This document shows positions 4,062-37,581 of a DNA stretch of 48,435 nucleotides, one piece after another; the first letter of the stretch is position 1; every line of letters starts with the position of its first letter. The position numbers and the translations under genes were made by a program. The stretch covers positions 1-48,435 of the forward strand of contig CAMCVV010000013.1 in NCBI GenBank assembly GCA_945881905.1, given 5' to 3'. The notes beneath the pieces are model-generated. The model had not been told where the DNA came from, made no database searches, and saw nothing but the letters and a program-made list of their open reading frames with translations. Source of the DNA: Paenibacillus alvei (GTDB taxonomy: Bacteria > Bacillota > Bacilli > Paenibacillales > NBRC-103111).

Positions 4062-4918
4062 GTGGACAAGAAAATCAAAAAATTTTCTCATATAAATTTA
4101 CCTATGTTGCCACCGAATGCTGAACTGGAAACCAAAGCTGTGCTAAAGCAACTGGCAAGAGCCAATCGTGCATTGGGTGAACTGAAAGGTTATGCAGATA
4201 CGATTCCGAATAAACATATTTTGATAAATGCGGTCATGATTAATGAAGCTAAGGACAGCTCTGCAATTGAAAACATCATAACAACTCATGATGACCTATA
4301 TAAAGCGATAAGTGATGCCTCGAAAAATACATCAATGAAGACTACAATGATGTTGATCCATTGATCAAACTAGCTGTAATCCATTACCAATTCGCAAGTA
4401 TCCATCCTTTTTATGATGGCAATGGAAGGACAGGTAGAATCATAAATGTGCTTTACTTGATAATAAAGGAATTGCTTGATAGCCCTATCCTTTATTTGAG
4501 TAGCTATATCATCAGGAATAAATCAGCATATGATAGACTTCTTCAGGAAGTCCGAACCCATGAGAATTGGGAGGAATGGATTGTTTATATTCTTACAGGT
4601 ATCGAGGAAACCGCAGAAGAGACATTGAGGTTGGTAAAAAGAATCAATACTGAAGTTGAAACAATGAGTGCTGAGATAAAAGAAAAACTTCCTAAAATTT
4701 ATTCCAAGGAACTCATTGATTTGCTATTTTATGAGTTTTATACAAAAACCGTCTATATTGAAAATGGCTTATCGGTAACAAGAAAGACAGCGGTTAATTA
4801 TCTGTCTTCTCTTGAAAAAGAAGGTTTTCTTACTTCTGAGAAAATAGGTAAGGAACGGATTTATCAAAATAAAAGACTCTATGATTTAGTTAAATATGGG
4901 CAATATGGGTTGGGATAA
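4062..4918 (+). pseudogene. Fic-domain protein, internally deleted and frameshifted
   Basis: The 5' part (GTG start at 4062) holds the Fic N-terminal region with INEAKDSSAIENIITTHDD. This includes the inhibitory (S/T)xxxE(G/N) helix typical of class II Fic proteins. The 3' part has the catalytic loop HPFYDGNGRTGR and a C-terminal winged-helix-like segment (SVTRKTAVNYLSSLEKEG). Between them about 70 residues normal for the family are missing. The frame also shifts: INEDYNDVDPLIKLAV is readable only in the downstream frame, while the upstream frame ends at a stop around 4364. Intact relatives AMPylate protein targets. This copy cannot make the full enzyme, although the 3' part could still be translated from an ATG at 4361. 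Confidence 0.8.
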
Positions 4919-7975: not shown

Positions 7976-9028
7976 TTATGTGCCGAGCAGTATATGTCTG
8001 ATTTTGTTAATAACTTCAATATTGCCAAAATAACAAAAAGTTTCATGAGTATCTTCAAGGGAATATTGATCTTTACTAGTCATCATTAAGGGAGTATGGT
8101 ATTCCATTTCACCAAAATCCCCTAATTTTCCGTCATCGTTATAAGCTTGAACACAATGACCAGGGTCATCTAGGTTAGGCACGAACACATCACCGTATGC
8201 ATAGCCAGGTTTAGTATCGAAGTGACGGATTATCAAGGTTGCTTGTTTTTCATTCACTTGACGATAATAACCCATTCTACCAGTCACGTAATGTACTTTA
8301 ATTGAAATCTTAAATGACTCTTGGGCATCGATCTTTACATTGACGAAGTGGGGATCAACAGAAACTCTTGGTGAATCAGCGGATCCAAAAAAATGATGAA
8401 CTGCAGCTTTACCATATGTCGGGATGATTAGCTCTCCGCCGGCAGGTAACTGAGCCAGCTGCCATGTAGATAGAGGTAATGTTTTATGATTATCGGTCAA
8501 GGTGACAGAAGTGGTCAGATCAAAACCTACAAATGAGTAGTTGTTTAATTCCTTAGCAGACCAAATATACTTCATTGGATCGGAGTTGGCGCGAAAAACT
8601 TTTTTGATGAGCATGGGTATTTTGCGATTTGTCCGATGTGCTATAGGTGAAGTAACTTGCATGATACATATTGAATGTTCATTTGTATTGTGAATACGAT
8701 AATTACCAGGATCAAAGATAGGCTGCACGGCATAAGTAGACCAAAGATTGTCAAGATCACCAATATTAAAGTCGATTTCTGGACTTAGCCAAGTTCGGTC
8801 GCCACCGATGTTCCATTCCACACCATGTTCAAACTGTAATTGAGCGTTATGCAAGTCGATCAATACTGGCGATGTCCACAGCAGGTTGTCGCAACTTTCA
8901 TCTGGGAAAATACCAAGCATTCGTGCACCTCGTTCAATAGTAACTAACTTCCCCAAAGGTCTTGTTTCGATAACATGATACGCCATGTTTAATTGTTTTA
9001 GATGTTGGATTAATTGATGGAACTTCAT
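7976..9028 (-). CDS. Mutarotase-fold (aldose-1-epimerase-like) conserved protein
   Basis: The protein has about 350 residues. The motif NIGGDRTWLSPEIDF (near residue 90) resembles the GGxRxWxxPE strand of galactose-mutarotase-fold proteins (DUF4380/DUF6786 type). The rest is a predicted all-beta sandwich, and there is no signal peptide. I set the start at the ATG at 9028, which has GGGGTG eight bases upstream. A longer frame reaching 9211 would overlap the divergent enolase gene, and its extra 61 residues look like translated promoter. Sugar-ring epimerisation or carbohydrate binding is plausible in a glycosidase cluster. The exact function is unknown. It is divergent from the enolase/GH36/PhyH unit. 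Confidence 0.65.
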   Translation of the reverse strand: MKFHQLIQHLKQLNMAYHVIETRPLGKLVTIERGARMLGIFPDESCDNLLWTSPVLIDLHNAQLQFEHGVEWNIGGDRTWLSPEIDFNIGDLDNLWSTYAVQPIFDPGNYRIHNTNEHSICIMQVTSPIAHRTNRKIPMLIKKVFRANSDPMKYIWSAKELNNYSFVGFDLTTSVTLTDNHKTLPLSTWQLAQLPAGGELIIPTYGKAAVHHFFGSADSPRVSVDPHFVNVKIDAQESFKISIKVHYVTGRMGYYRQVNEKQATLIIRHFDTKPGYAYGDVFVPNLDDPGHCVQAYNDDGKLGDFGEMEYHTPLMMTSKDQYSLEDTHETFCYFGNIEVINKIRHILLGT

Positions 9029-22006: not shown

Positions 22007-22295
22007 AGAAAAGCAAGGGTGTCCAACGTGAAGTGGAATCTGAAGGAAGCTGGAAGCCAGAGCTTCGAGCTGAGGAACACGAATCAAGTCTATCTCAGAG
22101 CAATCAGAGATGCACTCAGCAAGCTGGTTCTGAATGGGAAAGACCCTCCAAATCGATTCTGGAGGTTAGGAAATTCTTGAGGACAACGGAACAATACGAA
22201 CGTATAGCAATACCAACAGCAGAAGACAGGTGTAAACTTAGGCACGGACGTGTACCGAACAGTGTGCACGATAATGTGGATTATCGGCTATTCAA
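22007..22295 (+). ncRNA. Second group II intron RNA remnant
   Basis: It starts AAGCAAGGGTGTCC and continues with GTGGAATCTGAAGGAAGC, TGAGGAACACGAATCAAG, and later ACAGGTGTAAACTTAGGC. This order is typical of domain I/II of bacterial group II introns. The block 22027-22051 is identical to 7924-7948. No reverse transcriptase is present. A 104-codon frame within it has no protein character. The unit occupies most of the 520-bp gap between PhyH 2 and the regulator gene. Confidence 0.65.
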
Positions 22296-35668: not shown

Positions 35669-35983
35669 ATGGTAGAGTTAGATCAATTCGCAGATATATT
35701 TAAGTTGCTTGGCGACAAGAATAGATTGCATATTATGGCCCTATTGAAGGAAAGAGAACTGTGTGTGTGTGAGTTGGTTGATTTATTAGATACGAGTCAA
35801 CCTAATATCAGTCAGCATATACGCAAGTTGAAAGACGCACAACTGATCAAGGAAACACGAAGAGGGCAATGGATATATTATTCACTTTCTCTTGAAAATA
35901 AGCCTCATGTGCAATCGATTCTTGCACTATTACCTGGTCAAGAAGATAAGCTCAAATCATTTATACCTGTAGATTGTTGTTAG
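35669..35983 (+). CDS. arsR: ArsR/SmtB-family arsenical-responsive repressor
   Basis: 104 aa. A winged helix with LGDKNRLHIMALLKERELCVCELVDLL and TSQPNISQHIRKLKDAQLI (recognition helix). The ELCVCEL motif gives the paired cysteines of ArsR-type As(III) sensors, and a further CC ends the protein. The start is an ATG at 35669; AGGAG lies farther upstream, at about 14 bases. Its partner arsI follows after 15 bp, so the pair is a self-regulated organoarsenical-resistance operon. Confidence 0.85.
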   Translation: MVELDQFADIFKLLGDKNRLHIMALLKERELCVCELVDLLDTSQPNISQHIRKLKDAQLIKETRRGQWIYYSLSLENKPHVQSILALLPGQEDKLKSFIPVDCC

Positions 35984-35998
35984 AAGGAGGAGAAATAT

Positions 35999-36466
35999 AT
36001 GATACAACGTATGCACGTGGCACTGAATTGTACTAGTCTCGAACAGTCTTTGGAGTTTTATCGCGCTTTTTTTGGTGAGGAGCCTACCAAAGTGAAAGAC
36101 AATTACGCGAAGTTTGAGTTGGTTAACCCTGCACTGCATTTCTCGCTGAATGTTAGACCTTATGCACAGAAAGGTGTATTAAATCATCTTGGTTTTCAAG
36201 TGGGAGACTCGGCACACGTGTTAGCTATAGGGGAGCGTCTTCGTGCGTCTGGATTAGTCTATATCGATGAAATGAATACTACGTGTTGTTATGCAGTACA
36301 AGATAAAGTGTGGGTGCATGATCCAGATGGCAATGCGTGGGAGATCTTCTACACGAAAGCAGACTCGGAGTTTGAGTCAGCGGGACAACCACTGGATATT
36401 TCCTTGTGTTGTGTGCCACAGTCAACGGCAGTTCCGATCGAATGGATGAAGTCGTCCTCGAAATAA
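35999..36466 (+). CDS. arsI: ArsI/CadI-type glyoxalase (C-As lyase)
   Basis: 155 aa, a vicinal-oxygen-chelate fold. The metal ligands are expected at His in RMHVALN, His in LNHLGFQV and Glu in DGNAWEIF. The vicinal cysteine pair in NTTCCYA that binds trivalent organoarsenicals in ArsI is present, and SLCC lies near the C-terminus. It cleaves the carbon-arsenic bond of methylarsenite or aromatic arsenicals with O2 in characterised relatives. AAGGAGGAG precedes the ATG. The arsR neighbour supports the role. Confidence 0.88.
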   Translation: MIQRMHVALNCTSLEQSLEFYRAFFGEEPTKVKDNYAKFELVNPALHFSLNVRPYAQKGVLNHLGFQVGDSAHVLAIGERLRASGLVYIDEMNTTCCYAVQDKVWVHDPDGNAWEIFYTKADSEFESAGQPLDISLCCVPQSTAVPIEWMKSSSK

Positions 36467-36533
36467 GGTTTCTGAATTAATTATTTATTGCAGGCGCTTC
36501 ATGTTGAATTAGATCTCGATACCATATTGGGAA

Positions 36534-36582
36534 ATTCCTGTAATCGCACATATCATGAATGAATACGTGCGATTACAGGAAT
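36534..36582. other. Perfect 16-bp stem-loop after arsI
   Basis: ATTCCTGTAATCGCAC (36534-36549) pairs with GTGCGATTACAGGAAT (36567-36582) over a 17-nt loop. No T-run follows. It may still stop or stabilise the ars transcript. Confidence 0.55.
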
Positions 36583-36627
36583 GCAGGGATACGGGAATCA
36601 GAAGGATAAGCACAAATCGAACACAAG

Positions 36628-36779
36628 TTATCCACAAATAAACCCTAGGAAATCCTTAGACTCCACATACATTGTTCGCATATTATCCACAAACTATCCA
36701 CAATCAACTCATAGATTATCCACAGTTCATCCACAGTTCATGCACAGTTCATCCATAGCTTATCCACAGTTCATCCATA
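36628..36779 (+). promoter_or_regulatory. DnaA-box cluster with 11-bp phasing
   Basis: Four exact TTATCCACA boxes lie at 36628, 36683, 36716 and 36760. One-mismatch or weaker copies sit at 36694, 36727, 36738, 36749 and 36771. All are in one orientation and every start is separated by a multiple of 11 bp, one helical turn. TTATCCACA is the consensus DnaA box. No dnaA, dnaN or plasmid rep gene is in the window, so this is more likely a DnaA-binding regulatory or titration cluster than an origin. Confidence 0.75.
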
Positions 36780-36954
36780 CGCTGATGAGTTGTTACTCAC
36801 TCTCCATCACGCATCGAATGGAAATATTCGGCTTGAGAAAGCTTCTGTATATGATTTGTGGTAAAATACAAGATAATGTATGAAAATGCTATTCATGATT
36901 TTATACATTCAGATAGATTCATTAATGAGACAAGCAAACAAGGAGAGTCGACAT

Positions 36955-37581
36955 ATGCAAAAGCTTATAGACGGGATTGTTAATTTCAGAAGAGGAGACT
37001 TCGAAGCACATCAGGAACTTTTTCGAGATTTGAAAAACGGACAACAACCACATACACTATTCATTACTTGCTCAGATTCACGTGTAGACCCCAATATGAT
37101 CACGGGTACGCTTCCCGGAGAATTATTCATCATTCGCAATATTGCCAATATCGTACCGCCTTATCGGGAAACTTCAGAATATGTCGCTACAACTTCAGCA
37201 ATCGAATATGCAGTATTGATGCTTGGCGTGGAGAACATTATCGTCTGTGGGCATTCGAATTGCGGAGGATGTGCTGCGTGCTTGAATTCCTCCGTACAAT
37301 TGGACTTGATGCCTCATACGAAGAAATGGCTAGAACTTTCACATGCCGTGAGGGATCGCGTCATCTCTGAGATTCCAGATAACGAACCCGAAGCGAGAGC
37401 ATGGATGATGGAACAAGTGAACGTCGTCGAACAACTGAAGCACTTAATGACGTTCCCCTACATTCACCAGAAATTCATATCCGATCAATTGAAAATTAGT
37501 GGATGGCACTACATTATCGAAACCGGAGAAGTATACATATATAACTACGAACAAGGCGAGTTCTTGCTTGCGAATGGATGA
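36955..37581 (+). CDS. Beta-class carbonic anhydrase
   Basis: 208 aa from the ATG at 36955, which has AAGGAGAG upstream. An open frame extends back to 36880 but lacks a ribosome site. Zinc and active-site motifs are CSDSRVDP (CxDxR, near residue 40) and HSNCGGC (HxxC, near 100). It converts CO2 and bicarbonate in the cytoplasm. It has a short C-terminal extension (GEVYIYNYEQGEF) typical of the clade. It is monocistronic, just downstream of the DnaA-box array. Confidence 0.9.
   Translation: MQKLIDGIVNFRRGDFEAHQELFRDLKNGQQPHTLFITCSDSRVDPNMITGTLPGELFIIRNIANIVPPYRETSEYVATTSAIEYAVLMLGVENIIVCGHSNCGGCAACLNSSVQLDLMPHTKKWLELSHAVRDRVISEIPDNEPEARAWMMEQVNVVEQLKHLMTFPYIHQKFISDQLKISGWHYIIETGEVYIYNYEQGEFLLANG

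Follow-up and report, generated by a model that had tools for sequence, protein, structure and literature searches.

This locus of Paenibacillus alvei raises the question of why an intergenic stretch in front of a carbonic anhydrase gene should carry a long and regular run of DnaA boxes. A role in setting when the chromosome is copied is attributed to clusters of DnaA boxes that lie away from the origin, and to our knowledge few of them have been mapped outside model species. The window, i.e., the whole stretch of DNA that was analysed, comprises 48,435 bases of contig C13, and the array is located in a 488-bp intergenic stretch (36467–36954) between an ArsI/CadI-type gene and the carbonic anhydrase gene, all on the + strand. 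The features of the locus are as follows:

35669–35983: gene of an ArsR-type regulator, which precedes the ArsI/CadI-type gene
35999–36466, + strand: upstream gene, ArsI/CadI-type VOC metalloenzyme (ORF list, Pfam)
36534–36582: inverted repeat with 20-nt arms (95% complementary) and a 9-nt loop, between the upstream gene and the array
36628–36636, + strand: perfect DnaA box TTATCCACA standing by itself, in phase with the array that begins 55 bp further on
36683–36781, + strand: head-to-tail array of nine 11-bp units (motif match, sequence and Tandem Repeats Finder)
36859–36867, + strand: putative extended -10 element (TG, one base, TAAAAT) that may serve the carbonic anhydrase gene, found by eye
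36955–37581, + strand: downstream gene, carbonic anhydrase (Pro_CA), with its ATG 174 bp past the end of the array

The position of the array upstream of the carbonic anhydrase gene, as given in the first-pass annotation of this DNA, is thus correct. The ATG of this gene is preceded by a ribosome-binding-like AAGGAGAG, and plasmid homologues align from residue 1 of the start at 36955. No T-run follows the inverted repeat, exact copies of the 13-base core of its arm occur nowhere else in the genome, and its membership of the array element is uncertain; no Rfam family was found at the array.

The array units each consist of nine bases followed by two linker bases, and from 36683 onward they read TTATCCACA, CTATCCACA, CAACTCATA, TTATCCACA, TCATCCACA, TCATGCACA, TCATCCATA, TTATCCACA and TCATCCATA. 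Eight of the nine have at most 2 mismatches to TTATCCACA, three of these eight being perfect, while the unit at 36705 (CAACTCATA, 5 mismatches) is decayed and is no box. The first-pass annotation had counted four perfect boxes and at least five near copies in a shared orientation, and the same numbers were obtained here: perfect copies are found at 36628, 36683, 36716 and 36760, and near copies at 36694 (CTATCCACA, 1 mismatch), 36727 (TCATCCACA, 1 mismatch), 36738 (TCATGCACA, 2 mismatches to TTATCCACA and 1 to TTATNCACA) and both 36749 and 36771 (TCATCCATA, 2 mismatches each), all on the + strand. An 11-bp grid had also been proposed to start at 36628. The isolated box is indeed in phase with the array (55 = 5 × 11), which a single isolated box would reach by chance 1 time in 11, but the four grid units between 36628 and 36683 show 4, 4, 5 and 3 mismatches and are not boxes, so the continuous array is restricted to 36683–36781. 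The helical turn of DNA is about 10.5 bp, and an 11-bp step therefore drifts by about 17 degrees per box; the further proposal that one-turn spacing places all DnaA protomers on one face of the helix consequently holds only locally.

How far the array departs from chance was assessed by both word counts and arrangement. Within the window, 18 box matches with at most 1 mismatch were found against 17.8 expected, i.e., no enrichment, and the 40 perfect boxes of the whole genome do not clearly exceed the 32 copies of the reversed word. Since the counts are near expectation, it is the arrangement and not the number of words that is unusual, and only the clustering is non-random. A run score was defined as the number of boxes with at most 2 mismatches in 10 grid units, and it was computed for periods of 9 to 23 bp on both strands. 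The best run in the window reached 8 of 10 units at period 11; period 22, the double of the same array, gave a best run of 5 at the same place; and all remaining periods of this range, as well as the other strand, gave at most 2. When the letters of the 9-mer were permuted 200 times at period 11, 189 permutations scored at most 3, ten scored 4–7 and one scored 8, and this one was TTATCCACA itself. It can be seen that boxes matching TTATNCACA are clustered beyond chance at 36683–36781.

Meanwhile, the genome was scanned for two boxes 11 bp apart with at most 3 mismatches, which gave 17 matches (14 forward and 3 reverse) compared with 3 for the reversed control. The matches include runs at three places, namely the window array and two further arrays:

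C4:8370–8400: three grid units, together with an inverted perfect box at 8407–8415, about 70 bp before sda
C50:5600–5652: five ATATCCACA units at 11-bp steps, followed by a molybdopterin oxidoreductase gene of formate-dehydrogenase-like type

The gene after the first of these was identified as sda (PF08970, E 5.3e-12), and all three arrays point the same way as the gene directly downstream. The box and the 11-bp step are common to the three, while the linker bases are different; this argues against copies of one repeat, and an origin from one mobile repeat was rejected on these grounds. Another group of perfect boxes, three in number and in both orientations, is present at C38:2155–2348, ahead of a gene with the Pfam family FAD_binding_4 that was named murB-like by eye, and is possibly a further cluster.

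A tandem repeat without a function of its own, expanded from one or two DnaA boxes through slipped replication, would also produce a regular run. Tandem Repeats Finder fits the array stretch with period 22 as well as period 11, and such an over-period in the units, like the decayed unit inside the run, is what slippage could leave behind. Conservation of the locus gives no help against this explanation: a search for the downstream carbonic anhydrase covered 103 genomes of the family and 392 of the order, the host among them, and matches were found in 9 of the 392, the host again included, those in the other genomes being 26–40% identical, so that no orthologous locus is available to show selection. 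However, core and step are maintained in three arrays whose linkers differ, and the box columns are better conserved than their surroundings in two families of related arrays (described below). Slippage without function is accordingly regarded as unlikely.

The two related families came from the relatives of the host. Of the 103 family genomes, 99 carry sda, frequently in more than one copy, and 30 loci from the best-scoring genomes, which are part of all copies, were surveyed upstream. Within 400 bp upstream of these best 30 loci, at least four boxes (4–8) occur in 7, one or two in 7 and none in 16, compared with a mean of 0.14 boxes in 29 control windows downstream. The same-direction pairs within 40 bp at the sda loci (n = 14) are spaced 11 bp (4), 22 bp (6), 33 bp (1), 24 bp (2) and 9 bp (1); the 11/22/33-bp class thus makes up 11 of the 14 pairs and comes from six of the seven box-bearing loci, with direct 11-bp steps at two loci, both of one genus. 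The C4 array of the host can be aligned with these seven loci, and in this set of eight sequences, the conservation of box columns is 0.88 compared with 0.67 for other columns with few or no gaps. The host genome itself is 2.4 Mb at 99.59% completeness, while the other sampled genomes of the family have 4.1–10.3 Mb; the host is seemingly a reduced lineage that retains sda.

At the level of the order, 47 of 392 genomes hold a triple of boxes on the 11-bp grid with at most 3 mismatches in all, and none does so for the reversed control. These genomes are not independent: a single array on the argC side accounts for 13 of the 47, and a weak-box triple that recurs accounts for 13 others. The orientation of the argC-side arrays is opposite to that of argC and of the gene next to it (the flanking genes were named by eye), and in their 13 sequences, the box columns reach 0.94 compared with 0.73 for the remaining columns in which at least 12 of the 13 sequences have a letter. 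Both the sda set and the argC-side set were selected for holding boxes, so that the conservation contrasts are inflated and represent upper bounds. The recurring weak-box triple is a nearly identical 31 bp in 13 of the 392 order genomes, in one case beside an antitoxin-like gene (by eye), and it is perhaps the cargo of a mobile element.

A preference of the family for an 11-bp spacing does not show in perfect pairs. Perfect same-direction pairs are present in 92 of 103 family genomes and in none for the reversed control, and among the 150 matches listed, they are commoner at 12 bp (65) or 9 bp (25) than at 21 bp (12), 22 bp (9) or 11 bp (7); recurring loci, for instance, one upstream of a tadA-like gene (named by eye), inflate the 12-bp class.

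Whether the array could be an origin depends first on where the origin genes lie. On contig C80, the 3' end of dnaA (95 codons, the gene being truncated by the edge of the contig) is followed by dnaN, recF and gyrB (those three named by eye). The dnaA–dnaN gap on C80 contains ATATCCACATA, a short stretch and then CTACTACTATTACTA. Judged by eye, this CTACTACTATTACTA tract after ATATCCACATA resembles the DnaA-trio of the B. subtilis-type unwinding system. The encoded DnaA end has an intact C-terminal DNA-binding domain (PF08299, 107.5 bits; GGRDHTTVIHAHDKI). The window array, located on C13, is therefore outside the dnaA–dnaN region, and inspection by eye revealed no DnaA-trio-like tract after it; adjacent dnaA and dnaN with a DnaA-trio, the arrangement of a BUS-type oriC, is thus absent at the array. 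The claim that the array is far from any origin genes holds for the window, in which neither dnaA nor dnaN occurs; the array and the origin genes lie on separate contigs of an assembly of 2,400,421 bases in 87 contigs.

The reading as the chromosomal origin itself, or as a second origin, has some appeal from other phyla. A whole-collection scan for 11-bp grid triples gave at least 120 stretches, a sample, and three perfect ATCCACA units are present in 61 of 120 among the matches listed; 16 of these 61 loci, also among the matches listed and in phyla other than that of the host, share a record with a dnaA, rpmH or mnmG motif. Given the origin genes on C80 with their ATATCCACATA and CTACTACTATTACTA and the lack of such a tract at the window array, this reading is rejected as extremely improbable.

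The first-pass annotation had also suggested a remnant of a plasmid origin, and the same may be asked for phages, the repeats being either DnaA boxes or iterons. Plasmid-borne arrays do exist, for instance, on a Pantoea endosymbiont plasmid with two runs of seven TTATCCACAGG units. However, the intergenic stretch gave no nucleotide match against 72,556 plasmid records, and the phage search returned only two weak matches over the repeat alone, with 73.6 and 85.4% identity and E 3e-3. The annotation was right that no rep gene is near: in a Pfam scan of 40 window ORFs (the 38 with a length of 110 aa or more, plus two that are shorter; nine of the 40 had no Pfam family at all), no replication-initiator or partition family was found. 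With neither a nearby replication or partition gene nor plasmid similarity, and with no DnaA-trio-like tract, the suggestion of a plasmid or phage remnant was abandoned as very improbable.

The geometry of the array has counterparts in several known systems. It has been reported that in T. maritima, the two-box DnaA complex reaches its greatest strength when the boxes share a direction and are separated by 2 bp (PMC10316083), that the weak sites of E. coli oriC form two clusters of four with 2-bp gaps (PMC6070618), and that most DnaA targets found by ChIP-seq in E. coli consist of two boxes with a gap of 2 or 3 bp, where a base added to the 3-bp gap cuts DnaA binding and a base removed does not (PMC11317965). 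Similarly, a 2-bp gap is described for H. pylori as best or typical for cooperative DnaA binding. The 11-bp step of the window array is this published cooperative geometry, and the suggestion of the first-pass annotation that the array could be a titration or replication-control cluster is a fair reading.

As for the effect of such clusters on replication, the deletion of six clusters outside oriC in B. subtilis led to early initiation, which was partly relieved by one cluster; the same review also holds a view contrary to a sink effect of these clusters (PMC5295017). For E. coli, direct support for chromosomal DnaA titration has been described (PMC12371093). The B. subtilis clusters resemble the window array in that several DnaA boxes lie in a short stretch away from oriC (PMC5295017), and several DnaA-bound regions of B. 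subtilis are at regulated genes (PMC4447404); here, the window boxes are all in one direction, on a grid with 2-bp gaps and within about 100 bp. The sda promoter array of Bacillales shares with it head-to-tail boxes 11 bp apart before a co-directional gene, while compared with this genome's own sda array of three grid boxes and an inverted box, the window array is longer, farther from its gene and without the inverted box. The low-affinity arrays of E. coli oriC and double DnaA boxes likewise have sites 2 (or 3) bp apart (PMC6070618, PMC11317965), but the oriC arrays help to open DNA, whereas the window array has no visible unwinding element. The datA locus of E. coli lies outside oriC, contains several DnaA boxes and reduces the level of DnaA-ATP, and the window array is likewise a multi-box locus outside oriC; datA depends on IHF, and with regard to this comparison, no tRNA gene is present in the window. 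In the open-access literature on Paenibacillus DnaA boxes or oriC, on carbonic anhydrase together with a DnaA box, and on sda with 11-bp boxes, no such array was found to be reported.

Taken together, the array is probably an extra-oriC DnaA-box cluster that loads DnaA cooperatively and serves as a DnaA sink, possibly tuning the downstream gene as well. An extra-oriC DnaA-box cluster is a known kind of site, to which the window array adds an unusually long and regular case. DnaA binding at the array is likely by analogy with these systems. In the proposed mechanism, DnaA would first occupy the perfect boxes, and DnaA–DnaA contacts would then carry the protein to the weaker same-direction boxes across the 2-bp gaps, so that as many as about eight boxes may be covered by a short DnaA(-ATP) assembly of the head-to-tail type; the ATP form would most likely be the one loaded cooperatively. 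Such an assembly would hold DnaA away from oriC in a copy-number-dependent manner, as proposed for the B. subtilis clusters. This sink effect would be the likeliest consequence of the array, again by analogy, but it is a contested one. The period-11 run that is unique in the window, the intact DNA-binding domain of the encoded DnaA, the two further arrays of the genome and the spacings at sda loci of relatives speak for the overall reading; the unremarkable number of perfect boxes in the genome, the commoner 12- and 9-bp pairs of the family, the dependence among the order genomes and the sda loci lacking boxes speak against it. In addition, the carbonic anhydrase gene may respond to DnaA, because the array is upstream of it and co-directional with it, as is the sda array.

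The last point leads to a serious rival, in which the array is a DnaA-dependent promoter element: the bound array would activate or repress the carbonic anhydrase gene, and titration would be a mere side effect. The arrangement of the three genome arrays, each co-directional with the next gene, argues for it, as does the nature of one of these genes, since sda is directly activated by DnaA in B. subtilis (PMC4447404), and the position of the array 174 bp before the carbonic anhydrase ATG. On the other hand, a consensus promoter scan of the intergenic region found 3 promoters compared with 2.7 expected, which is the level of chance, and none of them is between the array and the gene. The same direction in three of three arrays may be chance, the argC-side arrays of relatives have the opposite orientation to their neighbouring genes, and a search of the open-access literature found no paper that links a carbonic anhydrase promoter to a DnaA box. 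Gene control as the main role is therefore considered possible rather than probable, and the reading as a cooperative DnaA-box cluster with a sink effect is preferred.

The carbonic anhydrase gene itself hints at a foreign origin. No close homologue was found in the sampled order genomes, and the best plasmid match, a rhizobial one with 46.4% identity over 98%, is closer than the order relatives; the sampled family consists of 104 genomes and includes no other species of the host's genus. A bolder and rather doubtful idea is that DnaA controls this foreign-type gene through a long cooperative array, so that the bicarbonate supply would follow the replication state, and that this array and those at sda and the molybdopterin oxidoreductase gene would form a DnaA regulon written in one 11-bp code in a small-genome lineage. 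Bicarbonate is needed for nucleotide and fatty acid synthesis, and if the idea were true, its supply would be tied to the replication state. Since three arrays of the same geometry are present in one genome, one of them at a known DnaA target, the dependence of DnaA loading and gene response on array length and 2-bp spacing is directly testable. Moreover, runs of DnaA boxes at 11 bp can be searched for as a design, as shown by the 47 of 392 sampled order genomes that carry them, 26 of these at the two recurring loci.

The length of the window array and its one-direction layout with 2-bp gaps are unusual in the sampled order, but runs as long or longer occur elsewhere, namely the two seven-unit runs on the Pantoea plasmid and at least ten TTATGCACAGG units in a Holosporales record.

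Several other observations were made in the window and in the collection. A 7-bp TTAATAA repeat with 10.7 copies is present at 101–175 of the window, a fragment of a Fic-family protein at 4361–4918 comprises the last part of the Fic domain and a SoFic-type C-terminal domain, and a match to a group II intron domain (RF02001, 35 bits) lies at 22022–22150. In the whole-collection scan, three ATGCACA units on the 11-bp grid were found in 48 of 120 stretches among the matches listed. By record title, 37 of these 48 loci belong to Rhodobacteraceae-type genera, with several places per genome, and the fourth unit is often ATGCAT (14), ATGCAC (12) or ATGCGC (6). At the fifth base, this word departs from the DnaA box, and it looks like an unexplained regulon site.
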